From positions 1 through 29,947 of the forward strand of contig JALTYW010000163.1 in assembly GCA_027046415.1 (NCBI GenBank): a DNA stretch of 29,947 nucleotides, given 5' to 3'. Positions 1,770-27,350 of the stretch are shown here, in pieces. Every line of letters starts with the position of its first letter. Position 1 is the first letter of the stretch. Below the pieces are notes generated by a model that had not been told where the DNA came from, searched no databases, and worked only from the letters and a program-made list of their open reading frames with translations. The position numbers and the translations under genes were made by a program. The stretch is from Sulfurovum sp. (GTDB lineage Bacteria; Campylobacterota; Campylobacteria; Campylobacterales; Sulfurovaceae).

Positions 1770-4700
1770 TTGAATGAACCTATGGTACAACTACATTATA
1801 TCGACAACGAAGTCTCTGAAGGTACTCCTGAGGCTGTTGCACCTTCTTCGACTCAGATAGCTATTGTCTGTCATGTTTTCTACCCTGACATCTGGCCAGA
1901 GATACGGGAATATATCAGCCGGATAGATATACCATTCGATCTCTATGTAACCATTCCTCCGCATATTGGGAAGGAAGAGGCTGCAGTAATACTCAAAGAA
2001 CATCCCGGCGTCCATCTTTACCGTACCCAAAACCGCGGACGTGACGTACTCCCGTTTCTGCTTGTCATGGATCATATCGGAACCTCGACTTACCGCTATA
2101 TCTGTAAACTGCATACCAAAAAAACCGGTGCAAGCCCTCTTGGCAATGTCTGGAGAAAACTGCTTTACTTCGATCTTATAGGCTCAGACCGTACCGTCAA
2201 AGAGACGATTGCAATGTTTGAAAACGACCCGAACATCGGTATGGTGACAGGGAAAAATACGATTCTTGATTCCGAACGCTACGACTATGGCAATACCGCC
2301 AAAATAGACAAACTCATAGAGATGTCCGGTTTCCTTTTTCAAGACGAATACCTCTTTGCAGGAGGTACCATGTTCTGGGTGCGCAGTGAACTGTTAGAAC
2401 CGATACTAAAACTGTTTCGAGAAGGGAAACTGACATTTGAAGAGGAGAAAGGGCAAAAAGACAACACAATCGCCCATGCACTTGAACGCTTCTTTGGGAT
2501 TGTCTGTCATGTAAAAGGCAAAACCATAGCTCCAAGTCCGTCACACTATTCGCAGCTGGATGACCAGACACTCGAAGAGACAGCCTCTTTGGTGCTTTCG
2601 CAACAATATCACGGAGAAGATGTCTTCACCGTACAAAAACGCAAGATTCAGGAGCAATATGACAGAATCGATGCGCTGGAGGAGCTTGCAGAGTCAATGC
2701 GCATCAAAAGCCGAATCAAACGTCTCTTCCCAAAAAAAATCGCCGATCTTCCCGGTAAACTGAAAACTGTTGTCGCCCTGCTCAAAAACCCTACTGTTTT
2801 GAAAAAGGTCTTCTTTTATCTTAAGCGTGGCGAGATACGCTATCTCGTACAAAAGGTAAAAGAAAAAAGCCAACGCAACCTCAAACGAAGTGCCAACCTT
2901 GAAAAAATAGATCCTGTCAAGTGGTTCAAACGCTTCAAGCAGCGCAATTTTTCTTTGGATGGCCTGCGTACAGATATCATCATCCCGGTCTATAACGGAT
3001 TTGAATTCCTCGAAGCCCTCTTTGACAGTATTGAAGCACACACAACCTCTCCCTACAGACTCATTGTTGTCAATGACTGCAGCCCCGATGAAAGGGTCAA
3101 ACCCTATCTTCTCAAGCGTCTTGAAAAACATCCTGATGCGATCTTCATCGACCATAAAACCAATCTTGGATTTGTCAAGAGTGTCAATGAGGCATTTGAA
3201 CATACAGAAAACCATTTCCTGATCCTCAATACAGATACCGAGGTTCCTCCTTTCTGGCTTGAACGGCTGATGTACCCTATTGTGCATATGCCAAACATCG
3301 CATCGACAACCCCATTTACCAATGCTGGGCAGATCGCAAGTTTCCCGGTATTTCTCGAAGACAATGAGATCTTTGACGGTATGGATGTCGATACACTGGA
3401 CAAAGCATTCAGAGAGATCAACCCTGAGACATTTTATGAAACCATCCCGACAGGAGTCGGTTTCTGCATGGGAGTTAACTACGACCTTGCACAACAGATA
3501 GGGCTCTTTGATGAAGAGACCTTCGGCAAAGGGTATGGTGAGGAGAATGACTGGTGCCAGCGTGCCATTGCACAGGGATACCGTAATCTTCTGGTACCAA
3601 ACCTTTTTGTCTACCATAAACACGGAGGATCTTTTTCTGCACAGCAGAAATCCATGCTTATGGCTGAAAACGGACAGAAACTTCTTGAGAGATACCCTGA
3701 TTACGATAAAGAGGTTTCCGAATATATCAAACGGGATCCTCACGCCTTGCTGCGAAATATGCTCGTTATGACCGCCTCTTCTTTACATGGAAAAGGTCTT
3801 TTCCTGATTGTCGATCATGCACTTGGCGGAGGTGCAAATATGTATGCACAGGAAGTGAGGGAGAAATACCGTCAAGAAGGGAAAAAAGTACTCTATATGG
3901 CATATGACTTCTATGCAGGACAGTACAACTTCTACTTCGACTACAACCAGTATCACTTCTCTTTTTCAATCGAAAATATAGAGGGAGTCGAGCATCTATT
4001 CAATGTACTGGTCATTCAGGAGATATTTATCAATACGATGGTCTCCTTCAAAGAGACTGACCGTATGCTCATTCTCCTAAAAACTCTTCAGGAGATCCAC
4101 CATAGTGACCTTGTCATTCCTATCCATGACTACTATCCTGTCTGTCCGAACTTTACACTGCTCGATGAGAACAGCCGTTTTTGTGAGGTCCCGTCAATAG
4201 AGCGCTGCGCACAGTGTATGGCACACAACGACCTTGAATGGAAAACCTTTGGCAACGACCATACCGATGTCGCTATGTGGCGGTCTCTGTGGCACACACT
4301 GCTCTCGGAAGCGACACGTATCATATGTTTTTCCGACTCATCCAGAACAATCATGCACAGAGCCTATCCTGATATTGGGGAGGAAAAATTTTCGATAGAG
4401 CCGCATCAGGTAGCTGATCTTCCTCCGGTTCATGCCGGCAGAAAACCTGAAAAAACAGGCATTACCATTGGTATCCTTGGAGCAATCAACCTTGCCAAAG
4501 GTGCCGGTGTCGTCAAGTCTCTTGTAAAAACCATTGAAGAGCGGGGGCTCGATATCAATGTCGTGCTCATTGGAGAGATATCAGAGCATATCAAAAGTGA
4601 TCGTTTCCATGTAACCGGTCGTTATGAGCGTGAAATGCTTCCGACACTTGTAAGGGAACATGAGATTGATATCTTTCTCATCCCCTCCATCTGTCCGGAG

Positions 4701-4868
4701 ACATTCTCTTATACTACCCAGGAGATCATTATGATGCAGATGCCTCTCATGGTTTTCAATATCGGTGCACCGGCAGAACGGGTCAAAACGTATGACAAAG
4801 GGGTCGTACTCGAACCCGACTACGTTGAAAATATTCTCAACCATATCTCATCTCTGTATGCCGGCTAG
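1770..4868 (+). CDS. Three-domain glycosyltransferase: RgpF-type + GT2 + GT4-like
   Basis: This 1032-residue protein is predicted to be cytosolic or membrane-associated and to assemble polysaccharide repeat units. Residues about 25-290 resemble the rhamnan-synthesis protein F domain: CHVFYPD near the start, then NRGRDVLPF and KLHTKK motifs. A basic linker follows. A GT2 domain begins near residue 400 (DIIIPVYNG, then NDCSPD, and a NTDTEVP metal-binding stretch near 484). From about 677 a GT4-like region starts with DHALGGGANMYAQ; its sugar-nucleotide half begins near 896 (GILGAINLAKG) and it has a PETFSYTTQE motif near 977, the usual GT4 acidic signature. The start is TTG, with AAAAGG about nine bases upstream (1755-1760); an ATG at 1782 is in frame but poorly placed. 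The acyltransferase gene overlaps its end. Rhamnose as donor is suggested by the RgpF domain and by rfb genes in the window but is not proven. Confidence 0.85.
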   Translation: MNEPMVQLHYIDNEVSEGTPEAVAPSSTQIAIVCHVFYPDIWPEIREYISRIDIPFDLYVTIPPHIGKEEAAVILKEHPGVHLYRTQNRGRDVLPFLLVMDHIGTSTYRYICKLHTKKTGASPLGNVWRKLLYFDLIGSDRTVKETIAMFENDPNIGMVTGKNTILDSERYDYGNTAKIDKLIEMSGFLFQDEYLFAGGTMFWVRSELLEPILKLFREGKLTFEEEKGQKDNTIAHALERFFGIVCHVKGKTIAPSPSHYSQLDDQTLEETASLVLSQQYHGEDVFTVQKRKIQEQYDRIDALEELAESMRIKSRIKRLFPKKIADLPGKLKTVVALLKNPTVLKKVFFYLKRGEIRYLVQKVKEKSQRNLKRSANLEKIDPVKWFKRFKQRNFSLDGLRTDIIIPVYNGFEFLEALFDSIEAHTTSPYRLIVVNDCSPDERVKPYLLKRLEKHPDAIFIDHKTNLGFVKSVNEAFEHTENHFLILNTDTEVPPFWLERLMYPIVHMPNIASTTPFTNAGQIASFPVFLEDNEIFDGMDVDTLDKAFREINPETFYETIPTGVGFCMGVNYDLAQQIGLFDEETFGKGYGEENDWCQRAIAQGYRNLLVPNLFVYHKHGGSFSAQQKSMLMAENGQKLLERYPDYDKEVSEYIKRDPHALLRNMLVMTASSLHGKGLFLIVDHALGGGANMYAQEVREKYRQEGKKVLYMAYDFYAGQYNFYFDYNQYHFSFSIENIEGVEHLFNVLVIQEIFINTMVSFKETDRMLILLKTLQEIHHSDLVIPIHDYYPVCPNFTLLDENSRFCEVPSIERCAQCMAHNDLEWKTFGNDHTDVAMWRSLWHTLLSEATRIICFSDSSRTIMHRAYPDIGEEKFSIEPHQVADLPPVHAGRKPEKTGITIGILGAINLAKGAGVVKSLVKTIEERGLDINVVLIGEISEHIKSDRFHVTGRYEREMLPTLVREHEIDIFLIPSICPETFSYTTQEIIMMQMPLMVFNIGAPAERVKTYDKGVVLEPDYVENILNHISSLYAG

Positions 4869-9575: not shown

Positions 9576-9586
9576 CTCACTGTCCT

Positions 9587-11080
9587 CTAAAAATTAAAAT
9601 ACAAAAATTCTGAACTGGTTTGTGATGTCATGACAGACAGCGCTGTTCCAAAGACCACTACTGTAAAGAAGAGCCATCCCAAAGATACTTTTTTGCACTG
9701 CTCAAACCTGTTGAGCAACATATTGGAATTACTAAATCCAAGTGTGATGACAAATCCAAGCAGCAGCCACTCTATAATATGCACACTCCTTAAAGTTGCC
9801 GTATCCAGCAGGATGAACATCTCGTGCAGATGGTTTTCAAAAGGACCGACAGCATGAAAAGGTCTCGAAAACCACTGATCTGTCGGCAACAGTTCAATGC
9901 TGGCCATACCTCTGAGTACCTTCAGTGCATCATCCCATGTTTCAGCCCTGAAAAAGACCCATGTGACATTGATGAACTGAAATGTCAAAAACCAGCCAAT
10001 GATATAGTGCATACGGAATCCCAAACTGCTCCATATACGGTGTATCACCAATGCAATTCCATGCAGAAAACCCCAAAATACAAATGTCCACCCAGCTCCA
10101 TGCCATATTCCGCCAATCAGAAATGTCAGCAGCAGGTTGGTATGGGTCCTTAAAACCCCCTTTCGGTTTCCGCCTAAAGGAATGTAGATATAGTCTTTTA
10201 AAAACCGGCTCAAGGTAATGTGCCACCTTCTCCAAAAGTCCTGTATGTTCAAAGACTTGTAGGGAGATGCAAAGTTGGCAGGAAGTCTTATATTGAAAAG
10301 CAGTGCTGAACCTATTGCCATATCAGTATATCCGCTGAAGTCAAAATAGATCTGGAAAGTATAGGAGAGGGAAGTGAGCCATGCCTCATAAAAATTCAGG
10401 CTTTCTGACAGATCAAATCCCTGTGTCGCCCAAACAGCGAAAGCATCGGCAAGCACCACTTTTTTGAACAGTCCAATGGCAAAAACAAAGAGTCCCAAAG
10501 CCATGTTGTAATAGTTTTTTACCCTGTTCTTTGCTTTGGCAAACTGCGGCATCATCTCTGCATGATGGACGATAGGGCCGGCAATCAGCTGAGGGAAAAA
10601 GGTGACAAACAGGGCATAGTTGAGAAAGTCATACTCTTTGGTCTCTTCTCGGTAGCTGTCCACAAGGTATGAAATCTGCTGAAAAGTATAGAAACTGATC
10701 GCAAGCGGTAAAGCAAGGTGCAGGAGAGGAATATGGGTATGATATACACGGTTGATATTCTCAAGAAAAAAATCCATGTATTTGTAGTATCCAAGCAGTC
10801 CGAGATTAAAGACTACACCGACAGCAAGCAGTTTTTTGGGAGAGTAGCCTCTTCGGTTGCGCCGATGGCGTGCCAGTTCTCTTCCTATGGTATAGTTTAC
10901 CACCATCGATACCAGTATCAACGGCAGATAATTAACATTCCACCATGCATAGAAAAAAAGTGATGCCAGTACCAGAAACGCTTTTCCGGCCTCCGTCAAT
11001 CGTTTATGGTTGAGATAAAAATAGACTCCAAAAACGATCGGAAGAAATAGAAAAACATAAATTGCAGAGTTGAATAACAT
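9587..11080 (-). CDS. MBOAT family O-acyltransferase (AlgI/PatA-like), copy 1
   Basis: This 497-residue polytopic inner-membrane protein probably moves an acyl group from a cytosolic donor to the periplasmic side for polysaccharide O-acylation. AlgI-type motifs are clear: LIAGPIVHHAEMMPQF, DFSGYTDMAIG, QDFWRRWHITLSRFLKDY, IPLGGNRKG, and GGIWHGAGW near residue 324 with the putative catalytic histidine. The length is typical. The start is ATG with AAGG immediately upstream. It is closely related over roughly its first 370 residues to the MBOAT at 22356-23810 but differs in the C-terminal 120 residues. It sits between dprE2 and the SGNH-like partner. The acyl group and target sugar cannot be read from the sequence. 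Confidence 0.93.
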   Translation of the reverse strand: MLFNSAIYVFLFLPIVFGVYFYLNHKRLTEAGKAFLVLASLFFYAWWNVNYLPLILVSMVVNYTIGRELARHRRNRRGYSPKKLLAVGVVFNLGLLGYYKYMDFFLENINRVYHTHIPLLHLALPLAISFYTFQQISYLVDSYREETKEYDFLNYALFVTFFPQLIAGPIVHHAEMMPQFAKAKNRVKNYYNMALGLFVFAIGLFKKVVLADAFAVWATQGFDLSESLNFYEAWLTSLSYTFQIYFDFSGYTDMAIGSALLFNIRLPANFASPYKSLNIQDFWRRWHITLSRFLKDYIYIPLGGNRKGVLRTHTNLLLTFLIGGIWHGAGWTFVFWGFLHGIALVIHRIWSSLGFRMHYIIGWFLTFQFINVTWVFFRAETWDDALKVLRGMASIELLPTDQWFSRPFHAVGPFENHLHEMFILLDTATLRSVHIIEWLLLGFVITLGFSNSNMLLNRFEQCKKVSLGWLFFTVVVFGTALSVMTSQTSSEFLYFNF

Positions 11081-11089
11081 CCTTGCCTG

Positions 11090-11821
11090 CTATATACTCA
11101 TCTTTTTAAACTGGAACTCCGGAATACTCCGAATAACCAACATGACCCATCGCCACATCCATTTCGTATACAGGATATCCTTCCCTTTCTGCTGTGCTCT
11201 AAAAATATCCTTCGCAACCTCTTCAGGAGCCGCAGTCAAATGTTTTGGCAAATCCATATGGGCAGTCATCCGTGTAGCAACAAACCCGGGTTTGACTGTC
11301 AATACCTGCACACCAGATGCATACAGCCTGTTCCTCAATCCTGAGAGATAGGCTGTAAAAGCCGCTTTTGCCGATCCGTAAATATAGTTGCTTTTACGTC
11401 CCCGTTCACCCGCTACAGAGCTGATGCCTACAATAAAGCCTTCTTTTCGCCTCTCAAAATCGTTTGCTATAACATTAAAAAGACTGACGATACCGGTATA
11501 GTTGGTATCGATGATTTTTTTTGCTTCAGGAAAATCCTCCTGAGCTGCAGTCTGTTCTCCCAGATACCCCACCGCGCACACGACACCCGCAGGCTTCTCT
11601 TCAATTTCCGCATACCAGTTTTGGTGACTTTCAAAATCCAGAATGTCAAGCGCCAAAAGTTGAACGTTGCACTCCGTACGAATTGCAATATCCTTGGCAA
11701 GCGGCTTTAACATCTCTGTATCTCTGGCTGCAAGGTAAATATCATACCCGTTTTTTGCGTACTCTCTTGCAACTGCTTTGGCCATATCACTTTTCGCTCC
11801 GACAATTAATACATAACCCAT
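11090..11821 (-). CDS. dprE2: Short-chain dehydrogenase, DprE2-like (polyprenylphosphoryl-2-keto-pentose reductase)
   Basis: This 243-residue SDR is proposed to reduce the 2-keto polyprenyl-phosphoryl pentose made by the DprE1-like protein, completing the ribose-to-arabinose 2-epimerisation. The cofactor loop is GAKSDMA (8-14), Ser134/135 and Y148-GSA-K152 form the catalytic set, and NYTG is at 107-110. The length matches DprE2 of mycobacteria (about 250). It follows the DprE1-like gene after one base; an AGGA within the end of dprE1 lies seven bases before the ATG. This adjacency and order match Rv3790-Rv3791. SDR sequence alone is generic, so the specific name rests mainly on the neighbour and the UbiA-type gene of the same operon. 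Confidence 0.82.
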   Translation of the reverse strand: MGYVLIVGAKSDMAKAVAREYAKNGYDIYLAARDTEMLKPLAKDIAIRTECNVQLLALDILDFESHQNWYAEIEEKPAGVVCAVGYLGEQTAAQEDFPEAKKIIDTNYTGIVSLFNVIANDFERRKEGFIVGISSVAGERGRKSNYIYGSAKAAFTAYLSGLRNRLYASGVQVLTVKPGFVATRMTAHMDLPKHLTAAPEEVAKDIFRAQQKGKDILYTKWMWRWVMLVIRSIPEFQFKKMSI

Positions 11822-11822
11822 A

Positions 11823-13121
11823 CTATATTCCTACTCTTTTCGATTGAAGTGATTGAAACTTTCTGTCCATTCCCTGCTCTTTTCTATATTTTCTAAACAT
11901 TTCTATTTGGGGATACCCCTGTTCAAACACCTCTTTACTTACACGTACATCTTTAGTCAGGTAGATTCGTCCCCCGTACTTGACAACAATTGTATCAAGC
12001 CTGTCCAGAAGTTTGAAAAGACCTTTTTCTATCTTGAAGTCAAGTGCAAGAGAGTACCCCTCCATAGGAAAAGAGAGATAGTTGGCGTTCTCTTTTCCGT
12101 AAAGTTTAAGGACGGCAAGGAATGAACCTTTACCGGACTCTGCTATAGCAGCCAGAATCTCGTCAAGCCCTTCGTAACTGGTTTCTTTCGGCAAAATAAA
12201 CTGATACTGGGTAAATCCCTGCTTCCCATAGATACGGTTCCAGTGTCCTATAGCATCGAGCGGATAGAAAAAGGTGTCGATATCGACAATCTGATAACTA
12301 ACACGCTCCTTTACCTTGCTATAATACAACCGGTTGAATGCTTTGACGCTCCAGTTGTTCAAAGCGAAATCAGGAAAGTTGAAAGGAATGGATTTTTGTG
12401 TTTTATGATGATAGTCAAGATCTCCGTCATCTTTAAAGTCACCTGCCATCAGCAGACATCTCCCTCTCTCTGAATCTGCAGCAAGACAATCTATCCATGC
12501 AACCGAATAGGGCATATGGGCATACGATTCAAACGCTTCAAATGTCTCTCTTAGATTTTTGGTCTTAATCGTTGTCTGTTCAATATACTGTGAGTTTATC
12601 TTCTTCAATGAAAGTGTCGCTTCCAGAATAATCCCGGTAAGCCCCATACCTCCACAGGTAGCCCTCCATAGCTCAGGAGTCTTCTCTCTGCTACACGTTA
12701 CAACTTCCCCATTTGCCAACATAATCCTAAACGACTTGACACTTTCGGAAAAACATCCTTCTACATGATGGTTTTTCCCATGCACATCCGATGCAATAGC
12801 CCCTCCAACTGTAATCAGCTTGGTTCCCGGTGTTACCTTTAAAAACCATCCTTTCGGCACAATCACATCCAGTATCTCCGAAAGCAGTACTCCTGCCTGT
12901 ACATGCAGCAGTCCCTCTGTTTCATCAAATGCCAACAAACAATCATAGGGACGGGTATGCACGATATTGTCATTCAGGGCACTGTCACCGTAGCTTCTTC
13001 CATTCCCATATGCAATAAGTGCTTTCTGTTCTGAGACAATAGAGTGGAGTGTTTTTTCATTGTCAAAACGGTGAACTGTCCCAAAGACTTTAGGATACCT
13101 GCCCCAGCTCTCAATTTTCAT
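11823..13121 (-). CDS. dprE1: FAD-linked oxidase, DprE1-like (polyprenylphosphoryl-ribose 2-oxidase)
   Basis: This 432-residue VAO-fold flavoenzyme is predicted to oxidise C2 of a polyprenyl-phosphoryl ribose. The FAD-binding stretch GNGRSYGDSALN is at 39-50. TPGTKLITVGGAIA (97-110) is followed by DVHGKNHH (112-119), whose His114 corresponds to His132 of the M. tuberculosis enzyme. Near the C-terminus K-L-Y-G and L-S-F-P-M are followed by SLALDF, and then Y387-L-T-K390 corresponds to Tyr415/Lys418. Relative to recalled M. tuberculosis DprE1, the Cys387 position is Ala359 here; the spacing of 31 residues to the conserved lysine is identical. The ATG overlaps the upstream stop (ATGA). Gulonolactone/aldonolactone oxidase is the alternative superfamily label, but the DHGKNHH-type block and the dprE2 neighbour favour DprE1. 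Confidence 0.87.
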   Translation of the reverse strand: MKIESWGRYPKVFGTVHRFDNEKTLHSIVSEQKALIAYGNGRSYGDSALNDNIVHTRPYDCLLAFDETEGLLHVQAGVLLSEILDVIVPKGWFLKVTPGTKLITVGGAIASDVHGKNHHVEGCFSESVKSFRIMLANGEVVTCSREKTPELWRATCGGMGLTGIILEATLSLKKINSQYIEQTTIKTKNLRETFEAFESYAHMPYSVAWIDCLAADSERGRCLLMAGDFKDDGDLDYHHKTQKSIPFNFPDFALNNWSVKAFNRLYYSKVKERVSYQIVDIDTFFYPLDAIGHWNRIYGKQGFTQYQFILPKETSYEGLDEILAAIAESGKGSFLAVLKLYGKENANYLSFPMEGYSLALDFKIEKGLFKLLDRLDTIVVKYGGRIYLTKDVRVSKEVFEQGYPQIEMFRKYRKEQGMDRKFQSLQSKRVGI

Positions 13122-15214
13122 ACTTCCCCCTTTCTATTCGGTACAGACTGAGGATAAAAAAGCATACGATAGAGTGTATAACAAAATACTGCCACCATCA
13201 TAGAAAAAACAGTGCTGCTGAGTATATCTTCTCCAAACAAAAAATCCGATACATAGAATCTAAAAAAGATCGCAAGATTAACCATTGTGAACAAATAAAA
13301 CAGTCTCCTGTCGAAACGATATACAACAAGGGTTACTGCCAAAAAGCCGCTAAACCAGCCAAAATAGGCTCCCTGATGGATAATTGTTGAACTTGCCAAA
13401 ACAAGTATCCATACAAGAATATGAATGAAAAAGCTGGCTATCAACAAAAAAAGCCAGGTTTGAACATCACCAAAACGCTCTTTTTTAAACCAATACAGCA
13501 CTATAAATACGATAGAAAAAGCCAGATAGGAATAATCCAGATGATAAAAAATGTTTCTGTGCCAAACCTCTGTCGACATTGTCCACAACTGAGCCAGATG
13601 GATATAGAGCGAATCAAATATATCCTTTATATGCAGCAGCCGTATATGCAACCATTTTTCAATACTCATAGTACTGTAATACTCTCTGAAGACTTGAAAA
13701 AAAGATTTGTCTGTCAATGGCCACCATGCTGCCAAATGCAACTTCAATAGTCTGTCTCCGGGAGGATCAAAGAGTTTTTGGTACAAAACCCACGGCAAAT
13801 ACATCAACAGGGCTGTACCCAGTCCATACACCAAACGTTTCAATTCATCCGCTTTTTTAATCTTGACCACAATCAAAACCGCCAATGCCAGCAGATAGAA
13901 TATCGATCCACCGTGCGAGAGGAAAGCCAGAGCAGAAGCTACGGCAAACACAAGTATATATTCCATTTTGAAGTGCTTTTCATCCCAAATACGCACTACA
14001 CAATACAAGGCGATTCCCTGATAAAGTGCTGAGAAGAGTTTTGGCCAGACAAAAAGCATATTGACAAAGGTAAAGGCATTGAAAAAGATCAGTATTGCTG
14101 TTATCAGAATATATATATTCTCTTTTACATAGCGTTGCAAAAGTAATATTACCAGAACAATGACCATTGTCTGTGCTCCGATAGCCACAATGAGATAGGA
14201 GAGATCACTGTATGAGAAGAGACTGAACAAAAGGTAAAGCCCTGTTTGAAGCGGTGGTCTGTCGCTGGAAAGCCATCCGGGAATCAACGGAGAGGGGATA
14301 TGCCCATTAAGTATACCGTTGGAAAACAATTTCGGGATCCAACTGTCCACAGGCAAATAAAACCATTTGTTGGAGGAGACACTCTGTATATTGTCAATAT
14401 GCTCCATATTGCTGTATGCCAAAAAGATCACCATACTAATCATCGATACGAACAGCACAAAAAGAGATATTATATTTTTTCTATCTTCCTTGCGTATGAA
14501 CAAAAAGGATACCAAAACAAAAACAAAGAACAGAATCGACAATACTTTACCCGCATTGACAGAAAAAAGATAGACATAAAAAGTGATCAGTGAAACAACA
14601 CCGACAAACAGTGCTGACAAAACATATGCATCGAGCCGGTTCCAATATCGCAAAAAATAGCCGTAAAGCGTACTGACAACCCATGAAAAGAGGATAATCC
14701 ACCCAAAGGTCTCAGCATACTGTGTCAACTTGAACACTTCCATACTGTCAAATATCCTGACATTCCCTATCCCTACCCAGCCATAACTGTCAGAAGCATT
14801 GTCTTGGGCAACAACATGGACGTCACCCTTCATCCCCTCGGGAAGGGAAAGAATAGCTGTTTTCCATCTCTTCGCACTGTCATGCAGGTGATCTGCTTTG
14901 AGCCTGTTCCCGAGCTCATCTTCAATATATATTTGAACCCCCTGATGGTTGGGATAACCTATATACTCGAACATCACATACTTGGCTCGCTTCCTGGGGG
15001 CAGTTACGATCTTCATTCTGTTTTTGTCAAATTTGTCACAAAATGAAACTTTGTATTCCTCGCTGCCTTTTTGTTCTATATAGCGCGAATAGCTGGTGGA
15101 GCACCCTCCTCTTTCCAACTGCATCTTGAAGATAAAAAGTTTCCAGACAACAATACTGCTTAAAACCGCAATCATCAGCAGACTCAGTAAAAGCCATTTA
15201 TGTCTCGACATCAT
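13118..15214 (-). CDS. Large polytopic membrane protein, GT-C-like glycosyltransferase with N-terminal periplasmic domain
   Basis: This protein has 698 residues. A membrane helix (about 8-30) is followed by a soluble stretch (about 31-160) with beta-rich, lectin- or CBM-like character, then about ten hydrophobic segments. After the second group of helices a loop carries LPVDSW and LSSDRPPLQTGLYL, resembling the acidic and D-x-P-x-L motifs of GT-C enzymes that use polyprenyl-phosphate sugars. It lies between a GtrA-family gene and dprE1, so a lipid-linked pentose is its likely donor (inference). The start is chosen at the ATG 15212-15214, with AAGG six bases upstream; a second ATG follows directly, and an extension to 15286 lacks support. 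It overlaps both neighbours. Part of it is very AT-rich (27% GC in bases 14461-14520), partly because of its membrane content. An O-antigen polymerase is the main alternative. Confidence 0.68.
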   Translation of the reverse strand: MMSRHKWLLLSLLMIAVLSSIVVWKLFIFKMQLERGGCSTSYSRYIEQKGSEEYKVSFCDKFDKNRMKIVTAPRKRAKYVMFEYIGYPNHQGVQIYIEDELGNRLKADHLHDSAKRWKTAILSLPEGMKGDVHVVAQDNASDSYGWVGIGNVRIFDSMEVFKLTQYAETFGWIILFSWVVSTLYGYFLRYWNRLDAYVLSALFVGVVSLITFYVYLFSVNAGKVLSILFFVFVLVSFLFIRKEDRKNIISLFVLFVSMISMVIFLAYSNMEHIDNIQSVSSNKWFYLPVDSWIPKLFSNGILNGHIPSPLIPGWLSSDRPPLQTGLYLLFSLFSYSDLSYLIVAIGAQTMVIVLVILLLQRYVKENIYILITAILIFFNAFTFVNMLFVWPKLFSALYQGIALYCVVRIWDEKHFKMEYILVFAVASALAFLSHGGSIFYLLALAVLIVVKIKKADELKRLVYGLGTALLMYLPWVLYQKLFDPPGDRLLKLHLAAWWPLTDKSFFQVFREYYSTMSIEKWLHIRLLHIKDIFDSLYIHLAQLWTMSTEVWHRNIFYHLDYSYLAFSIVFIVLYWFKKERFGDVQTWLFLLIASFFIHILVWILVLASSTIIHQGAYFGWFSGFLAVTLVVYRFDRRLFYLFTMVNLAIFFRFYVSDFLFGEDILSSTVFSMMVAVFCYTLYRMLFYPQSVPNRKGEV

Positions 15215-15620
15215 GTTCAACCTTGAAACTGAAATATTTATGGCCAATATAACTGGTAAATGCCGGAAATGCAACCCCGATAGCATGTGCTATTGCCTGA
15301 GGGTAATACACAAATCCAAACCTGGGAAAAAGGTACTCTGCCAAACCGACACTGATGAGGTAGGTCTGCACAACAGCCACAATATTGACCAGCACAAAAT
15401 AGAAAAGTTCCTTGTGTACAGGATGTATACTCTTTTCAAATACAAAAAACTTTGAAAGCACAAAAGCGGTTATCATACCTGTTATATAGGCAACAATCAC
15501 GGCATTTCCAAATGACATATATTCACTGTAAAAAAACCTGCTGAGGAAATTGACTACTGCTGCAAAGCCTCCAGCCATTACAAAAGTGACAAACTGTCTG
15601 GATTTGAACTCGTTAATCAC
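15198..15620 (-). CDS. GtrA family membrane protein (Rv3789-like position), copy 1
   Basis: This 140-residue protein has four predicted membrane helices, typical of GtrA: F-V-x-A-G-G near the N-terminus, N-A-V-I-V-A-Y-I-T-G-M, an F-x-L-x-K-F-x-V-F-E turn, and a final H-K-Y-F-S-F-K stretch. GtrA proteins are proposed flippases for polyprenyl-phosphate sugars, or scaffolds for the cognate transferase. It sits just upstream of the GT-C-like gene and DprE1/DprE2, as Rv3789 sits beside Rv3790-Rv3791 in mycobacteria, so a role with the DprE product is proposed. The GTG at 15618-15620 is preferred: AAAAGAG lies six bases upstream and the codon overlaps the end of the FAD oxidoreductase gene. The open frame reaches 15707, but that extension is not GtrA-like. 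Confidence 0.85.
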   Translation of the reverse strand: MINEFKSRQFVTFVMAGGFAAVVNFLSRFFYSEYMSFGNAVIVAYITGMITAFVLSKFFVFEKSIHPVHKELFYFVLVNIVAVVQTYLISVGLAEYLFPRFGFVYYPQAIAHAIGVAFPAFTSYIGHKYFSFKVEHDVET

Positions 15621-16902
15621 GTACGACTCTTTTGGCCAAATTTCGCCCATAACCGATAGATTCCGATATGCCCCTGTCCTCAGGGTAGTAGTAGGATGTA
15701 TCTGCAACCCACAAACCTTCTATCGGTAATTGCGCATCAGGCAGAGTATCCGGAAAGTTTGGTTGGCAAACAGGTTGGGCGTAATGGTAGCGATGTACCC
15801 TTATATCAAGTATATTTTTATCCTGAATTCTCGGATTAACCATTTTGAAATAACGCTTTACTTTCTCCTCGAAAACCTCATCCTTGTCTCTGTACATTGG
15901 ATTGCCTTGAGGCATATAATAGGGCACATAGACAATATGGCCTACATCCGGATTGAGATTGCTGTATTCAATAATCCCAGGAATATCCATACTGTCATCA
16001 TTCGTATTGAGCCAGAAGTTTTCTGTTAAAGGCTGATCGAGCTTTGCGATAACGCAGACACCGGCGATATTCACCTTGTTTCGGAACATTTCAGCAATAT
16101 CATCGGGGAGATCGGGCATTATTTTTGCAGCAATAGGAAGAGGGATGGTGGATACAACCTTCCCAAAACGGTACAACTCACCATTGGTGACAACTCCAGT
16201 TACCGCTTTACCCTCTATCTTGACCTCTGATATCTCATGATTCAGTTTAAACTGACCGCCATGTGCTTCAATATACTCTTTCATCGCATTCAAAAGGGTT
16301 TTTGATCCGCCATTGAGATAACCGAGTTTCTCTTTGAAAAGATTGTACCTTGATCTGCCTATCCTTCGTATACGACTCCAAATCCACGGAGCCGAAAGGT
16401 TGTCTGAATATTCATAGAACTTTTGGTAAAAAAGCTTTTGCCATAAAACATCGAATGCTTCATCTCCGACCCACTTTTTTACCCAGGTAAGTGCATCATA
16501 TTTTTCCAAAGGTCTCCAGTCGTTGATTTTTGTCGAGACAAACGCATGCAGCCCATAACGAAACTTTGCAGCCAAACTGAGTCCCTTGAACCTCAGCAAT
16601 GCTGCAGGATTGCCCCATGCCTGCAGCCTGTTCTGGTACCAGTATCCCATTTTTGTACTTTTCCAGTTCAACTGATTCTCTATTCCAAGTTCCTCAAGCA
16701 CCTTGAAAAAAGCTTCATCCGAGGTACAATGGAAATGGTAGTAACGCTCTATCTCCAAACCGTTAAAGTCAAATGTTGCAGTCATACCGCCAATTCTGTC
16801 ATCCGCTTCAAATACTACAGGCGTATAGCCTTGTCTTACAAGTTCATATGCAACAGCCAGCCCCATAGGACCCGCCCCGATTACTGCAACTTCCTTCCCC
16901 AC
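15613..16902 (-). CDS. FAD/NAD(P)-dependent oxidoreductase (amine-oxidase/protoporphyrinogen-oxidase fold)
   Basis: This roughly 429-residue flavoprotein has a Rossmann motif GAGPMG close to the N-terminus, then FEADDRIGGMT for the ribose contact, and a C-terminal FAD-binding region around the G-L-W-V-A-D-T-S stretch. The overall pattern is that of the amine oxidase/phytoene desaturase superfamily. It lacks the typical early motifs of UDP-galactopyranose mutase, which I considered because that enzyme shares the fold and neighbours the arabinan genes in mycobacteria. The substrate is unknown; context suggests a sugar or polyprenyl-linked sugar. The GTG at 16900-16902 is selected because AGGAG (16909-16913) is six bases away; the ATG at 16906-16908 touches the same AGGAG with no spacing. 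The two starts differ by only two residues. Confidence 0.8.
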   Translation of the reverse strand: MGKEVAVIGAGPMGLAVAYELVRQGYTPVVFEADDRIGGMTATFDFNGLEIERYYHFHCTSDEAFFKVLEELGIENQLNWKSTKMGYWYQNRLQAWGNPAALLRFKGLSLAAKFRYGLHAFVSTKINDWRPLEKYDALTWVKKWVGDEAFDVLWQKLFYQKFYEYSDNLSAPWIWSRIRRIGRSRYNLFKEKLGYLNGGSKTLLNAMKEYIEAHGGQFKLNHEISEVKIEGKAVTGVVTNGELYRFGKVVSTIPLPIAAKIMPDLPDDIAEMFRNKVNIAGVCVIAKLDQPLTENFWLNTNDDSMDIPGIIEYSNLNPDVGHIVYVPYYMPQGNPMYRDKDEVFEEKVKRYFKMVNPRIQDKNILDIRVHRYHYAQPVCQPNFPDTLPDAQLPIEGLWVADTSYYYPEDRGISESIGYGRNLAKRVVRD

Positions 16903-16908
16903 CGGCAT

Positions 16909-16913
16909 CTCCT
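16909..16913 (-). promoter_or_regulatory. Shine-Dalgarno AGGAG deciding the start of the FAD oxidoreductase
   Basis: AGGAG (CTCCT on the plus strand) overlaps the TAG stop of the upstream SDR gene. It abuts the ATG at 16908 with zero spacing but is six bases from the in-frame GTG at 16902. The geometry favours initiation at GTG and couples translation of the two genes. Confidence 0.5.
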
Positions 16914-17853
16914 AAAACTTCAATACAATCTGACTATAATGAGGGTCATTGAAGGTTTCATACATGGCTTCCTCAAATGGTGTCGGCTCAACACCAAAGA
17001 TCTCCCACCACGGTATCAATTCAAACTCATCATCCGCTACCAATGCTTCAAGCTGCTGTGTTGTAAAAGGGGGATTTGAGCTGAAAAGCGCATAAGTTGC
17101 CATAAGCATCTTAAACAAGCTGTAAGGGATCTTCACGATAGGTGTTCGCAACCCTTTTACTTTTTTGATTGTTCTGATAATATCAATATAATCGACCTTC
17201 TCTCTTCCTGTTATATTATAGATCCTGTTTTCAGGCTGCATCTCCATTGCCGCAATAATAATGTTACAAAAGTCTTTTTCATAAAGCGGTTGCCGCATAT
17301 ATCTACCATGTCCTGGAATTGGGAAAAGAGGCACTTTTTCCATAAAACGGCTGAGCCACCCAAGATGTTTTCTGTCAAACCAGCCAAACATAAGTGTCGG
17401 TCTTAAAACACAGTAGGGAATGTCGGACTCTATAACCAGTTTCTCCTGCTCTTTTTTCGTATTGGTGTAAAAATCGTCTGCCACTGAATTGACAACAGAT
17501 GAACTGATATGCACAAGGTAGGAGACATTATACCGTTTCATGACCTCAATGATATGCTGCGTTGAGGTAATATTGTTACGAATAAACGGTTCGAGTGTGG
17601 GAGCGCCGATCTGTGCCTGCAGCATCAATACTACTTCGGCACTTTCAAATGCTTGTTCCCATTCACCTTTCTCTGCAAGATCTGCTTCGATACTCTCGAT
17701 ATCAGGGTGCAGTCTTCTCAATACCTCTATATTTTCATGGTGTTTATCAATCGCCACAATATTACGGTACCCTTTACGCTTCAGGTGTACAATAAGATTC
17801 TGACCGACCAGACCTGCAGCACCCGGAATGACAATTTTTGCATTTTGATCCAC
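16912..17853 (-). CDS. NAD-dependent epimerase/dehydratase family protein (extended SDR)
   Basis: This 313-residue extended SDR is predicted to be cytosolic. The nucleotide motif is GAAGLVG at 11-17, an acidic D60-region follows the second strand, the catalytic serines are in HISSS (115-119) and the Y129-TNT-K133 pair is intact, so it should be active. The C-terminal half carries a W-F-D-R-K-H stretch and an R-Q-P-L-Y-E-K-D substrate-domain region. The subfamily is not recognised; nucleotide-sugar epimerases, reductases and lipid-linked sugar enzymes share this fold. It lies between the UbiA-type transferase and the FAD oxidoreductase, 12 bases from the former, so it may act on the same pentose pathway. 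The start is ATG at 17851-17853, preceded by a GAGGGAG-type ribosome site. Confidence 0.83.
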   Translation of the reverse strand: MDQNAKIVIPGAAGLVGQNLIVHLKRKGYRNIVAIDKHHENIEVLRRLHPDIESIEADLAEKGEWEQAFESAEVVLMLQAQIGAPTLEPFIRNNITSTQHIIEVMKRYNVSYLVHISSSVVNSVADDFYTNTKKEQEKLVIESDIPYCVLRPTLMFGWFDRKHLGWLSRFMEKVPLFPIPGHGRYMRQPLYEKDFCNIIIAAMEMQPENRIYNITGREKVDYIDIIRTIKKVKGLRTPIVKIPYSLFKMLMATYALFSSNPPFTTQQLEALVADDEFELIPWWEIFGVEPTPFEEAMYETFNDPHYSQIVLKF

Positions 17854-17865
17854 ACTCCCTCCTCT

Positions 17866-18735
17866 TTAATATAGAATCATACCAAATGTTACAATCCACA
17901 TCACAATCACTATCTGTATCATACGATCCTGCAACAAAATTTTTGTCGGACTTCCGCTAACCTCTTCAACAAAAGTAATCTGCATGTAACGCATAATCCC
18001 TACAATCACATAGATCAGTGTCAAATAGAGTTTGTCACTGCCTGTACGCTCTATGACTTCCGGAGAGACACAATACATCAAGTAGGCAACGATGACCACA
18101 CCAGCCATCAATGTCATCGCCATATCAACAAACTGAATATTGTACCCATCAATAACCTTTCGCATTTTTTGGCCTGTTCGGTTAAAAATGAGAATATCAT
18201 CACGCCTCTTTGCCAATGCAAGAAAGAGTGCCAGCAGAAAGGTCATCACCACAATCCACATAGATGCATCCAACCCCGTAACCGTTGTACCTACAAAGAT
18301 TCTCAACACAAAACCTATGGCGATCACTGTCACATCAATTACTGCAAGATGTTTCAAAGAAAGCGTATATGCGATATTGAGCAGTACATATGCAAAAAGA
18401 ATTGCAACCGCAGGAAAAGAGAGCATACCCATCATTGCAAATCCGGCAACAAACAGGAATATCGCCAAAACAAACGCCTGATTCTGGGAAATTCTTCCTG
18501 ATGCCAAAGGACGGTACTGTTTAACAGGATGCATACGATCATCTTGCATATCAAAATAATCATTGACAATATATACACCACTTGCCGTCATCGAAAATGC
18601 CATAAATGCCATAACCGTATGCCCCAGCAGAGGTATATCGGTAATTTGTAAAGAAAAAAACAGAGGAAGAAAAATAAACATGTTCTTCAAATATTGATGT
18701 GGGCGCATCAATACAACTATATCGTGAACATACAT
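17866..18735 (-). CDS. UbiA-family phosphoribosyltransferase, Rv3806c-like (5-phosphoribosyl-1-diphosphate : polyprenyl-phosphate)
   Basis: This 289-residue polytopic membrane enzyme has N-terminal RPHQYLKN (11-18), the Asp-rich NDxxDxxxD motif at N58/D59/D62/D66 and, directly after it, R67-x-H69-P70-x-K72-x-x-R75-P76-x-A78-x-G80. That extended motif matches decaprenyl-phosphate phosphoribosyltransferase (Rv3806c) rather than quinone or heme UbiA enzymes. A K-R-R-D-D loop and a Y-x-x-x-F-x-D motif follow. The reaction would transfer phosphoribose from PRPP onto a polyprenyl phosphate at the inner membrane, the first committed step to DPA. The start at 18735 is chosen over 18753 because AGAGG lies about seven bases upstream of it. 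No phosphatase domain is fused to it and none is adjacent. Confidence 0.85.
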   Translation of the reverse strand: MYVHDIVVLMRPHQYLKNMFIFLPLFFSLQITDIPLLGHTVMAFMAFSMTASGVYIVNDYFDMQDDRMHPVKQYRPLASGRISQNQAFVLAIFLFVAGFAMMGMLSFPAVAILFAYVLLNIAYTLSLKHLAVIDVTVIAIGFVLRIFVGTTVTGLDASMWIVVMTFLLALFLALAKRRDDILIFNRTGQKMRKVIDGYNIQFVDMAMTLMAGVVIVAYLMYCVSPEVIERTGSDKLYLTLIYVIVGIMRYMQITFVEEVSGSPTKILLQDRMIQIVIVMWIVTFGMILY

Positions 18736-18758
18736 CGTTTTTCCTCTCTTCATCCCTA

Positions 18759-20801
18759 CTACAATGCACCTTTCCCAGTTGACTTGTCAGCTATACGTTT
18801 CCAAATATCCAGGGCAAGACTCTCCGGAAGTTCCACATCCTCAAACGTAACAATCTGTCCTTCTTTTACATCCCTTACAAAAGTGGCATTTGCCAAGAGT
18901 CCGATAGGCACATGATTTGGATGTTGTTCAATGTGTACCGCTTCACCGCGTACATCGAAACTTCCGATCGCTTTTTTAAGCTGATCTCCGGAAGCGATAT
19001 CGTGTTTGGCAATAGCAGCGACACTCAGTTTCGGATCTGCTCCGTTATTGAGCAGAACACCTCCGCCGCTTAGTACGCGTCTGATCGTCTTGATGATCTC
19101 AAGGTGGCACAGATGGTAGGTACGCTCAAGCACATAGTATGGACCCTCGCCAAGCTTGTAGTAGCGCAGTGCATCTACCTGCTCTTCGTCATGTTTGACC
19201 ACAAGAAAGACCCCGGCAGGAAGCTTTGAAGAGAGTACATAGTCACTGATTGGGCACCCCATCTCCTCTGCTTTTTCTGCCAGTATCGTTCCGCCATGAA
19301 GCATGTCATCATCTTTGAGCTTCAGCAACCCTTCCTGTGCGATACACGCACCCAGACCGTTTGCTACCAGTACCTGCTCTATCTGAACTTTGGTACCGTC
19401 TGTAAAGGAGGTGACCATCTCAAGCGAAAGGTTCGATTTGGCACCCCAGTACTCCATATCTTCACGGGTCGGATTTTCATTCAAAAACCCTTTGATGTTG
19501 ACATAGGCAACCGGTTTGAAGCCCATGGCAAGCGCCTCTTCATGCAAGATTGCCTCTACCCCGGGCTGATCTCCCTCTGCTTCGGTCACAAGTCCTTTGT
19601 CCACAAAATAGGAACCTGTCGTGACATGAAACTCCGAGTTCATGGTCACTACCGGAATATCGGCTTTTAAAATCCGGTCTATGGTCTCTGTTGCATAGAT
19701 CGCATCACCGCTGCACTCTACGATCAGATCGCATGATCCGATCAGATCATCCAGATTGTTCGTCAGTACCTCCGGCTTGATAAAGTCAGTTCGCTTGGAA
19801 AGGTCTGTTCGGGTCAATACACCGCTTAGTCTATAGTCCGGATGCTGCAGCAGCAGTTTTGCCAAGCCGTTTGCAATGAATCCGGAGCCGATGATCCCTA
19901 TTTTGTACTGTTTTACCTCTTTGAGATCCAGTAGCGAAATACATGACTTCAACGAATCACGCCAATAGGGGATCTCAAGGTTGTACTCCTGCTTGATTTT
20001 GTCTTTGTTCAGAACACTGTAGGAGGGGCGTTTTGCCGGTGTCGGATACTCATGGGTACTGATAGGCTTGACCTTGCAGTCAACCTGTGCAATCTCAAAG
20101 ATCGCCTGTGCAAAGTCGTACCATGAACAGTTCCCCTCATTGCTGTAATGGTAGGTTTTGACTTCATCGTGTTTGTTGTCTGATTCGATAATTGCAAGTA
20201 TAGCCCGTGCAAGATCTCTTGCATAGGTCGGCGTACCGATCTGGTCACACACCACACGGATCTCGTTACGTTCACTGCCCACACGCAACATTGTTTTGAC
20301 AAAATTGTGCCCCATACTGCTGTAGATCCATGAGGTTCGGATGATCATGGCTCCTTTTGGTGCAATCTCCCTGATCGCCTCCTCTCCCTCAAGTTTTGAT
20401 TTGGCATATACACCCTGCGGATTGACAGCATCTTTCTCACACAGTGGCGTATGGCTGGTACCGTCAAAGACATAATCGGTCGAGATGTGTATCAGTTGCA
20501 CATTGTACGCTTTGGCTGCCTCCGCCAGATTCCGTACAGCGCCACGGTTGACAAGGTATGCCAGTTCAACATCCTCTTCTGCTTTGTCAACGGCAGTATA
20601 GGCTGCACAGTTGATAATGGTATCGATACTGTTCTCTTTTACAAAACGCTCTACTGCTGCTTTGTCTGTAATGTCCAGTGTCTCTCTGTCGGTAAAGTAG
20701 TAGCGGTCTGCCCCCTCAAGCCGTTCACGGTTTTCTACAAGTGCACGAAACTCTCTGCCAAGCTGTCCGTTTGCTCCGGTAATCAAAATATTTCTATTCA
20801 T
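18759..20801 (-). CDS. rfbD: Fusion protein: dTDP-4-dehydrorhamnose reductase + homoserine-dehydrogenase-like/SAF oxidoreductase
   Basis: This is one open frame of 680 residues. Residues 1-295 form a complete RfbD/RmlD reductase (last step of dTDP-L-rhamnose synthesis): GANGQLG at 9-15, STDYVFDG at 107-114, and Y132/K136. A short linker leads to a second Rossmann domain starting near 299 with GIIGSGFIA (302-310). It has an ECSG-type active region and a C-terminal 80-residue SAF-like module (AIAKHDIASG..., then a V-K-E-G-Q-I-V stretch). Stand-alone proteins of this second type are often labelled FlgA because of the SAF module. Their reaction is uncertain; an NAD(P)-dependent oxidoreductase acting on a sugar or small acid is a reasonable guess. 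The ATG at 20801 overlaps the end of rfbC by eight bases; the frame is open to 20834, but that stretch is not RfbD-like. No frameshift or internal stop marks the joint. Confidence 0.88.
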   Translation of the reverse strand: MNRNILITGANGQLGREFRALVENRERLEGADRYYFTDRETLDITDKAAVERFVKENSIDTIINCAAYTAVDKAEEDVELAYLVNRGAVRNLAEAAKAYNVQLIHISTDYVFDGTSHTPLCEKDAVNPQGVYAKSKLEGEEAIREIAPKGAMIIRTSWIYSSMGHNFVKTMLRVGSERNEIRVVCDQIGTPTYARDLARAILAIIESDNKHDEVKTYHYSNEGNCSWYDFAQAIFEIAQVDCKVKPISTHEYPTPAKRPSYSVLNKDKIKQEYNLEIPYWRDSLKSCISLLDLKEVKQYKIGIIGSGFIANGLAKLLLQHPDYRLSGVLTRTDLSKRTDFIKPEVLTNNLDDLIGSCDLIVECSGDAIYATETIDRILKADIPVVTMNSEFHVTTGSYFVDKGLVTEAEGDQPGVEAILHEEALAMGFKPVAYVNIKGFLNENPTREDMEYWGAKSNLSLEMVTSFTDGTKVQIEQVLVANGLGACIAQEGLLKLKDDDMLHGGTILAEKAEEMGCPISDYVLSSKLPAGVFLVVKHDEEQVDALRYYKLGEGPYYVLERTYHLCHLEIIKTIRRVLSGGGVLLNNGADPKLSVAAIAKHDIASGDQLKKAIGSFDVRGEAVHIEQHPNHVPIGLLANATFVRDVKEGQIVTFEDVELPESLALDIWKRIADKSTGKGAL

Positions 20802-21366
20802 AGAACTTCTCGCTATAGTCAAATAGATCTGCATCTTTGAGCAGCGGCTGTTTGGTATCTTTTTCCGAAAGCTTCATCATACTGCGCTCAAACGGCCATT
20901 CAATCCCTATTTCCGGATCATCAAAAGCAATACCTCTGTCATTCTCCGGAGAGTAGTAGTTGTCTACTTTGTAGGCAAAGACCGTATCATCCTCAAGTAC
21001 GACAAATCCATGTGCAAAGCCTCTTGGGACAAAGAGCTGTCGCTTGTTCTCTTCACTCAGTTCAACAGCGACATACTCGCCGAATGTCGGACTCCCTTTC
21101 CGAATGTCAACTGCTACATCGAGCACCCTTCCTTTAATGACCCGTACAAGTTTTGTCTGTGCTGCATGGGTGAGCTGGTAGTGAAGTCCCCGAAAGACGC
21201 CTTTGCTGCTTTTAGACTCATTGTCCTGACAGAAACCAACCTTGAAACCGAGGAATTCTTCGAGTTTGTCCTGTCGGAATGTCTCTACAAAATATCCCCT
21301 CTCATCTCCGTGTACAACGGGGTCGATAATCACCACATCCTCTATTTTGGTTCGTGTAAACTGCAT
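20794..21366 (-). CDS. rfbC: dTDP-4-dehydrorhamnose 3,5-epimerase
   Basis: This 190-residue cupin enzyme isomerises dTDP-4-keto-6-deoxyglucose in the cytosol during dTDP-L-rhamnose synthesis. Key features are H-G-D-E-R-G-Y-F near 19-26, the catalytic FRGLHYQ with His62, K72, and a catalytic tyrosine in the NYY stretch at 136-138. FVPRGFAHGF (112-121) is the cupin signature. The length is normal. The start is ATG, with a GGAGAG-type ribosome site just upstream. It overlaps the rfbD fusion gene by eight bases. The first two enzymes of the pathway (RfbA, RfbB) are not in the window. Confidence 0.95.
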   Translation of the reverse strand: MQFTRTKIEDVVIIDPVVHGDERGYFVETFRQDKLEEFLGFKVGFCQDNESKSSKGVFRGLHYQLTHAAQTKLVRVIKGRVLDVAVDIRKGSPTFGEYVAVELSEENKRQLFVPRGFAHGFVVLEDDTVFAYKVDNYYSPENDRGIAFDDPEIGIEWPFERSMMKLSEKDTKQPLLKDADLFDYSEKFYE

Positions 21367-21378
21367 CGTTTCTCTCCT

Positions 21379-22344
21379 TTATTGATCTTTGGCTTCAAGT
21401 TTGTCTATCTCTTTGGCAACATATTGTGACACAAGTGGGCTGCCCTTGTCATTCAGGTGGGTACGGTCGGAGAAATAGGCATCTCCAAGATGCAATGGCT
21501 GAATGCGGATCAGTTTTCCGCCATACGGCTGCATCGCTTCGGCTACCCTTTTGTCAAAATATGCCATAGCATCTCTTACCGATTTATGCTTCTCATACAA
21601 CGGCTGTCTGTAGGGCTGATGTACAACATAAAACCCGATACCGTTTTCTTGTGCCTTTTTGGCCATCCTGCCAACAGCCTTGAATGACTCACCATGCATA
21701 ATTCCCGGATGCGGAAGGTGCCAGCGGTGGTGAACAATGTCCTTTCCGTAAATATGTAAAGGAACGCTTCCACTTGCATCGAAAATCAGAGATTCGAACG
21801 TATTGGTTCGCATATGGTCAGGAACCCATTTCTTTTGCCTCTCATAACAGAATAGCAAGTTGTTGCATGCATGAAACAGCAGTTTCAAGTAGGCAAAAGG
21901 GGTTAACTCATGACGAATGTATTTTACCAGTGTTTTGGGGTGGTAATCTTTAAACTTCCAGGTATGCGGCATATCCGAATACTGTACCGAGTAGATAACC
22001 CGCTTGAGGTTGGGAAAAGCATCTGTCAGTGCCATAATCTGTTCTGCCTGAAGTGTCGTAGCCCCATAAACCGAAAGGTTAAGCACTTTATCGATTTTCT
22101 TGGAATTTTTTTCCATGATCGATCCAAGCAGATTGTTAAGCCCAATGGAGGAACCGATAATCAAAGTATCAACTTTGTCCGGATCAACTCTCTCTCTTGC
22201 AAACTTCAGCTTGGCATCAAAGGAGATATGGTCTGTGATGGGGATAGGATAGTGCGCATTAAAGTAGGCAACATATCCCACGGCGACGGAGAAGATAACA
22301 GCAAACCCGACAAAGAGGCACTTTAGATATGTTTTAGGATTCAC
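21379..22344 (-). CDS. SGNH-hydrolase-like O-acyltransfer partner protein, copy 2
   Basis: This 321-residue protein has an N-terminal membrane anchor (about 8-27) and a periplasmic SGNH-type domain. The nucleophile block is IIGSSIG (62-68, serines 65/66). Near residue 290 the DRTHLNDKG motif supplies the Asp and His of the last block. The gene is 11 bases downstream of the second MBOAT gene, so the two form an O-acylation pair like AlgI/AlgJ or PatA/PatB. It is 170 residues shorter than the copy-1 partner and the two align poorly beyond the catalytic blocks, although their MBOAT partners are very similar. That suggests different acceptors. The start is ATG at 22342-22344, with GAGGAG upstream. 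Confidence 0.8.
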   Translation of the reverse strand: MNPKTYLKCLFVGFAVIFSVAVGYVAYFNAHYPIPITDHISFDAKLKFARERVDPDKVDTLIIGSSIGLNNLLGSIMEKNSKKIDKVLNLSVYGATTLQAEQIMALTDAFPNLKRVIYSVQYSDMPHTWKFKDYHPKTLVKYIRHELTPFAYLKLLFHACNNLLFCYERQKKWVPDHMRTNTFESLIFDASGSVPLHIYGKDIVHHRWHLPHPGIMHGESFKAVGRMAKKAQENGIGFYVVHQPYRQPLYEKHKSVRDAMAYFDKRVAEAMQPYGGKLIRIQPLHLGDAYFSDRTHLNDKGSPLVSQYVAKEIDKLEAKDQ

Positions 22345-22355
22345 GCTCTTCTCCT

Positions 22356-26942: not shown

Positions 26943-26947
26943 CGTTT

Positions 26948-27349: not shown

Positions 27350-27350
27350 C

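Follow-up and report, generated by a model that had tools for sequence, protein, structure and literature searches.

An operon in Sulfurovum sp. (phylum Campylobacterota) resembles the mycobacterial gene set for lipid-linked D-arabinose (DPA), which raises the question of what sugar it hands to its glycosyltransferase. The operon lies in a stretch of 29,947 nucleotides, here called the window (assembly GCA_027046415.1, contig JALTYW010000163.1). An earlier note had listed, in a single minus-strand operon, a UbiA protein with an extended motif, a GtrA protein, a GT-C-like membrane protein, a DprE1-like flavoenzyme, and a DprE2-like reductase, and had suggested that the host makes a polyprenyl-phosphoryl pentose, perhaps D-arabinofuranose. 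All five genes were found as stated. Two further genes had been omitted: one for an epimerase-like extended short-chain dehydrogenase/reductase (SDR), which we call SDRep, and one for an FAD protein, FADox. The order on the minus strand was UbiA, SDRep, FADox, GtrA, GT-C, DprE1, and DprE2 (18753-11090), almost without gaps. Chance was ruled out by the recurrence of this gene set in other bacteria, including members of other phyla. On the sequence data, this is probably an extended lipid-linked pentose operon, in which SDRep and FADox would turn polyprenyl-phospho-arabinofuranose into another sugar before flipping.

The core enzymes were compared with structures and curated families. The UbiA protein carried the motif N-D-Y-F-D-M-Q-D-D-R-M-H-P at residue 64 (pattern N-D-x2-D-x3-D-R-x-H-P), and its best PDB match was Rv3806c (8j8j; E 8.4e-42), the likeness that the earlier note had proposed. 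A quinone-type identity was rejected because of this match (quinone UbiA 4od4 gave E 0.088) and because a second UbiA of the genome, on a different contig, was a far better match to Pfam UbiA (182.8 bits, versus 83-86.5 bits for the operon copy). Against the NCBIfam decaprenyl-phosphate phosphoribosyltransferase family, the operon protein scored 231.9 bits (cut-off 234). The DprE1- and DprE2-like identities also held: the former matched PDB DprE1 at E 1.5e-73 (NCBIfam DprE1, 385 bits; cut-off 500), and the latter matched PRK07102 above its cut-off (368 versus 267 bits) and PDB DprE2 at E 6e-31 (next family, 7e-16; NCBIfam DprE2, 184 bits, cut-off 250). Judged by these matches, the three proteins are DPA-type and not quinone-type. 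A polyprenyl-phosphoryl pentose is therefore the likely product of this part of the operon, with the GT-C enzyme attaching it. D-arabinofuranose as the end product, in contrast, need not hold, because of the SDRep-FADox add-on and because the GtrA protein falls outside the lineage found in simpler gene sets.

SDRep and FADox form an add-on: they rarely occur apart, and rarely in a genome that lacks DprE1. We refer to UbiA-GtrA-DprE1-DprE2 as the plain set and to a set that also has SDRep and FADox as the extended set or module. In a collection holding one genome per species, scanning confirmed 430 FADox relatives, and we inspected the best 80 of them. These 80 loci, many on cut contigs, contained SDRep in 80 cases, GtrA in 75, DprE2 in 72, DprE1 in 71, and UbiA in 67. 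Eight of the nine loci without a nearby DprE1 had one elsewhere in the genome (the match in G299 was partial), bringing the number with DprE1 in the locus or genome to 79 of 80. Outside the window, SDRep was present in 102 of 103 FADox loci and lay no more than 150 bp from FADox in 97 of the 102. The exact order UbiA-DprE1-DprE2-SDRep-FADox-GtrA was seen in 59 of 100 loci (L055 and L059 being one genome), and four plasmids, from Burkholderia, Rhizobium, Rhodobacteraceae, and Agrobacterium, also had this order. The best 80 relatives came from Pseudomonas, Burkholderia, Achromobacter, and other genera, and FADox was also present in named Xanthomonas and S. maltophilia.

Two families were followed further. 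In the family of a Stenotrophomonas metagenome-assembled genome (MAG; G307), DprE1 occurred in 21 of 198 genomes and FADox (at least 46%) in 16, all within those 21; each of the 15 FADox regions fetched contained all six genes. FADox paralogues at about 31% in four genomes of this family were excluded, since no module surrounded them and DprE1 was absent. In the Burkholderia dolosa family (150 genomes), DprE1 occurred in 21 genomes at 22 places. FADox was present in 4 of the 21 DprE1 regions fetched there, and the 22nd place (G308) is locus L067, one of the extended sets among the best 80. One of the four, L240, has FADox beside UbiA-DprE1-DprE2, and the same operon has a 433-aa open reading frame (ORF) without a Pfam match. 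One candidate SDRep-FADox fusion, a frame of 851 aa in a Stenotrophomonas MAG (L135), was rejected as a frame artefact because the C terminus of the SDR was garbled.

The survey of Campylobacterota that the earlier note had proposed was done by profile scan. DprE1 scores were two-peaked, at 367-396 bits versus at most 62 bits for all other listed matches, so GlcD-like FAD proteins were rejected as DprE1 and 241 genomes with any match were reduced to 13 of 298 (14 places, including the window). In 13 regions fetched from 12 other genomes of the phylum, UbiA adjoined DprE1 in 12, the exception being L040, and L050 had no visible DprE2. GtrA was confirmed by Pfam in all five regions tested (L040, L041, L042, L045, and L047), and a HAD protein was present in all five tested for it (L040, L042, L045, L047, and L048). 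SDRep, FADox, and the window's GT-C were not found in any of the 13 regions (tblastn, 40 bits). Thus, DprE1 in the host's phylum sits mostly in the plain set. Phage copies of DprE1 were rejected, as phage gave a single weak partial match.

FADox (E at most 1e-30) was present in 2 of the 298 genomes, the window's and that of Sulfuricurvum sp. PC08-66 (G060), and both had DprE1 (Fisher p 0.0018). Named FADox relatives also came from Arcobacter and Campylobacteraceae MAGs, and the closest match to the window operon was in an Arcobacter MAG (UbiA-SDRep-FADox-GtrA-GTC-DprE1-DprE2-HAD). Sulfuricurvum sp. PC08-66, which belongs to the same order as the host, has a plain GtrA-DprE1-DprE2 set with a plain-type GtrA adjoining DprE1 (L040) and, on a separate contig, UbiA-SDRep-FADox with an extended-type GtrA (L055/L059; GtrA row from L055). 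With both sets in one genome, this strain is well suited to testing for two donors.

We also compared the GtrA and DprE1 proteins of 36 plain and 104 extended loci, with L240 counted as extended and L059 dropped as a duplicate. GtrA rows were restricted to proteins of 90-190 aa encoded on the same strand no further than 5 kb from DprE1 or 1.5 kb from FADox, which left 30 plain and 88 extended rows; for DprE1 there were 36 plain and 92 extended rows. The best GtrA matches were of the same type in all 118 rows, whereas the best DprE1 matches crossed types in 14 of 128. The GtrA tree had one type change, on a branch with support of 100; in the DprE1 tree, built with a faster program, the types mixed, with 16 changes. 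Forcing the 16 Campylobacterota GtrAs together was rejected (AU p 0.00125, with the caveat of a long branch). This split of GtrA by module type is most simply explained by a flippase that recognizes a different donor in the extended modules.

Taken together, the operon likely encodes a DPA-type route that includes a second conversion stage and has a flippase lineage of its own. As the enzyme families suggest, UbiA would transfer ribose-5-phosphate from phosphoribosyl pyrophosphate (PRPP) to polyprenyl phosphate, a phosphatase, for which no gene was seen in the window, would take off the 5-phosphate, and DprE1 and DprE2 would invert C2 to give polyprenyl-phospho-D-arabinofuranose. SDRep and FADox would then act as a pair on the lipid-linked arabinofuranose and convert it into another sugar, a step proposed because of their strict pairing and dependence on DprE1. 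The dedicated GtrA would flip the new donor, and the sugar may then be added to a rhamnose-containing surface glycan by the GT-C enzyme, which has a carbohydrate-binding-like domain. SDRep residues D36, S117-S119, and Y129-x3-K133 were conserved in at least 97% of 101 sequences. The AlphaFold model of FADox (mean pLDDT 92.6) had the fold of phytoene desaturase, protoporphyrinogen oxidase, amine oxidase, and UDP-galactopyranose mutase (UGM).

Several observations weigh against a second conversion stage on a DPA-type route. UbiA, DprE1, and DprE2 all score under the curated NCBIfam DPA cut-offs and are therefore relatives, not certified members. No 5-phosphate phosphatase was seen in the window, and two HAD proteins elsewhere in the genome, a 1.44 Mb draft that is 65.7% complete, gave weak matches (38 bits); in relatives L056-L058, a HAD gene adjoins DprE2. 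The AlphaFold and fold results indicate family, not reaction. L240 (G562) has FADox with no SDRep nearby and none found in its 1.7 Mb assembly, and at L082, where the contig is cut 186 bp before FADox, the genome had no DprE1 match. In addition, the GtrA split lies on a long branch, its rows covered 30 of the 36 plain loci and 88 of the 104 extended ones, and a different GtrA could reflect a changed acceptor or partner, not a changed donor.

If SDRep and FADox do convert the sugar, polyprenyl-phospho-L-xylopyranose is a possible though tentative product. FADox, whose fold also holds UGM, would expand polyprenyl-phospho-D-arabinofuranose to the pyranose, and the GalE-like SDRep would invert the freed C4; D-arabinose with C4 inverted is L-xylose, which the host would add to its rhamnose glycan. 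L-xylose occurs as non-stoichiometric side groups on rhamnose in the O-antigens of Ralstonia and Xanthomonas, and xylose occurs in Stenotrophomonas. At the genus level, this product fits the occurrence of FADox in Xanthomonas and S. maltophilia and of the module, by annotation, in Xanthomonas lipopolysaccharide (LPS) loci, and the RmlC, RmlD, and RgpF genes in the window fit as well. Our literature searches found no donor route for L-xylose, and the main text of Kelly 2024 (PMC11127046) contains no occurrence of L-xylose, pyranose, or mutase. However, the X. citri O-antigen is reportedly a rhamnose homo-oligosaccharide without xylose. The modeled fold of FADox does not appear to favour a mutase. 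FADox was rejected as a plain UGM, being without the GLF domain and showing no fold preference; PF03275 had no match in FADox, its Xanthomonas homologue, or G000.

The same conversion stage could instead yield polyprenyl-phospho-D-lyxofuranose, a rather doubtful product, if SDRep and FADox were a second oxidase/reductase couple that inverts C3. Such a couple would mirror DprE1/DprE2 in joining an FAD enzyme to an SDR, and lyxofuranose would require inversion at C2 and C3 (Kelly 2024, PMC11127046). However, according to the same paper lyxofuranose is in no solved carbohydrate structure, although FADox loci occur in Pseudomonas, Burkholderia, Achromobacter, and other genera. The O-antigens of these genera are much studied, and alcohol oxidation would be unusual for the phytoene desaturase/amine oxidase fold.

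It is unlikely that the operon is a plain DPA system ending in D-arabinofuranose transfer, with SDRep and FADox serving another sugar of the same glycan. The plain set alone looks complete in most of the loci fetched from the phylum and on plasmids, and DprE1/DprE2 homologues have been tied to arabinofuranose glycans (Kelly 2024, PMC11127046). Nevertheless, the pair is almost always confined to genomes with DprE1, and its modules have a separate GtrA lineage, both of which speak against a plain system. Modification of the polyprenyl chain or another lipid by SDRep and FADox is very unlikely, as the pair sits beside UbiA-DprE1-DprE2, partly in glycan loci, SDRep is an epimerase-like SDR, and a chain modification would not predict dependence on DprE1.

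No SDRep-FADox pair is known in the described mycobacterial DPA pathway (Rv3806c, DprE1, DprE2, Rv3789, and Emb/Aft). The active-site residues of DprE1 are retained: positions aligned with Y60 and H132 of mycobacterial DprE1 were invariant in 128 of 128 rows, and those aligned with K367, Y415, and K418 in 125 of 125 rows having the column. The column of Cys387, the cysteine that reacts with benzothiazinone drugs, had Ala in the window protein (residue 359) and in all 125 module rows with the column. The operon also shares the logic of lipid-phosphate sugar, GtrA, and GT-C with Gtr seroconversion systems (GtrB-GtrA-Gtr), where, in contrast, a GT2 enzyme uses a nucleotide sugar to make a hexose donor. 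What looks like a classical hexose seroconversion trio lies at 25038-28316 on the minus strand of the window (by Pfam, GT2 27351-28316, GtrA 26948-27349, and GtrII 25038-26942); thus, two lipid-donor systems sit side by side.

The earlier note had known of no such system in Campylobacterota, and our limited literature search likewise found no arabinofuranose report for the phylum. In Gram-negative bacteria generally the idea is not new: lipid-linked ribofuranose, xylofuranose, and, by homology, arabinofuranose systems have been published, and Xanthomonas systems of greater complexity, in which the significance of several candidate epimerases or GT-Cs is not known, have been mentioned (Kelly 2024, PMC11127046). 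The same paper describes the three-component systems of Citrobacter youngae O1/O2, which share with the window a UbiA-type phosphoribosyltransferase with the same N/D motif, cytoplasmic epimerase step(s), a GT-C with a carbohydrate-binding domain, and a surface polysaccharide setting. Unlike them, the window operon has GtrA (PF04138) instead of a MATE/EmrE-type flippase, has DprE1 and DprE2 plus the SDRep-FADox pair, has its phosphatase neither fused nor in the window, and has the GT-C beta domain after the first helix, not the last. In the LPS locus of Xanthomonas citri 306 and X. oryzae BXO8, Patil 2007 (PMC2238763) gives, without function, ORFs for a GtrA-like protein, a protoporphyrinogen oxidase/phytoene desaturase, an NAD-dependent epimerase, a short-chain dehydrogenase, an oxidoreductase, and a prenyltransferase, and in Xac also one for a protein of 746 aa. 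Judged by annotation, size, and order, these appear to be the same module.

Among the papers listed, no assignment of the SDRep-FADox pair was found, judging from titles and abstract openings in a search mostly outside the subscription literature. The module is a widespread, conserved gene set without an assigned product, with 430 FADox relatives and SDRep beside FADox in all of the best 80, and the window brings Campylobacterota into the range of the DPA-type gene set. Should the pair turn lipid-linked arabinofuranose into another sugar, lipid-linked pentose chemistry would gain a second modification stage, and the genes would serve as a marker for a surface sugar. With L-xylose as the product, the pair would provide a donor pathway, of which our searches found no report, for the L-xylose of Ralstonia and Xanthomonas O-antigens.

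The GT-C protein had no sequence match in Pfam, NCBIfam, or PDB. Its AlphaFold model (mean pLDDT 88) showed a GT-C fold in which the first helix is followed by a beta domain that is carbohydrate-binding-like. A 698-aa public record would begin at 15214, and the ORF is open from 15286.

Table 1. Genes of the operon and proposed backbone genes in the window
Feature	Position	Strand	Product	Basis and remarks
UbiA-family polyprenyl-phosphate phosphoribosyltransferase (Rv3806c-like)	17866..18753	-	295 aa	Pfam, NCBIfam, PDB, motif
SDRep, extended SDR, epimerase-like	16912..17853	-	313 aa, GTG start	PF01370 77 bits
FADox, PRK07233-type FAD oxidoreductase	15613..16908	-	431 aa	NF005560 528 bits, cut-off 252
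GtrA-family membrane protein, putative flippase	15198..15650	-		PF04138 50 bits; extended-module lineage
GT-C fold membrane glycosyltransferase	13118..15214	-		predicted fold; no sequence family
DprE1-like oxidase	11823..13121	-	432 aa	NCBIfam, PDB
DprE2-like short-chain reductase	11090..11821	-	243 aa	PRK07102, PDB DprE2
RmlD fused to NAD-binding and DRL domains	18759..20834	-		Pfam; upstream of operon
RmlC	20794..21366	-		Pfam; upstream of operon
RgpF (rhamnan synthesis), GT2, and GT1 multidomain glycosyltransferase	1770..4868	+	1032 aa	

From their positions, we propose that the rhamnose precursor genes RmlC and RmlD serve the acceptor backbone; the RgpF multidomain glycosyltransferase is the putative backbone enzyme. 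The fusion partner of RmlD, a homoserine-dehydrogenase-type NAD-binding domain with a DRL catalytic domain, looks unusual. Two MBOAT acyltransferases lie within 8097-11080 and 21379-23810. After each comes a protein that has a hydrophobic N terminus and no Pfam match (8097-9575 and 21379-22344), so that there are apparently two O-acylation pairs. A lipoprotein-like protein at 23904-24980 had a sub-threshold match to GH43 (27.5 versus 32.2 bits), a family that includes pentosidases.

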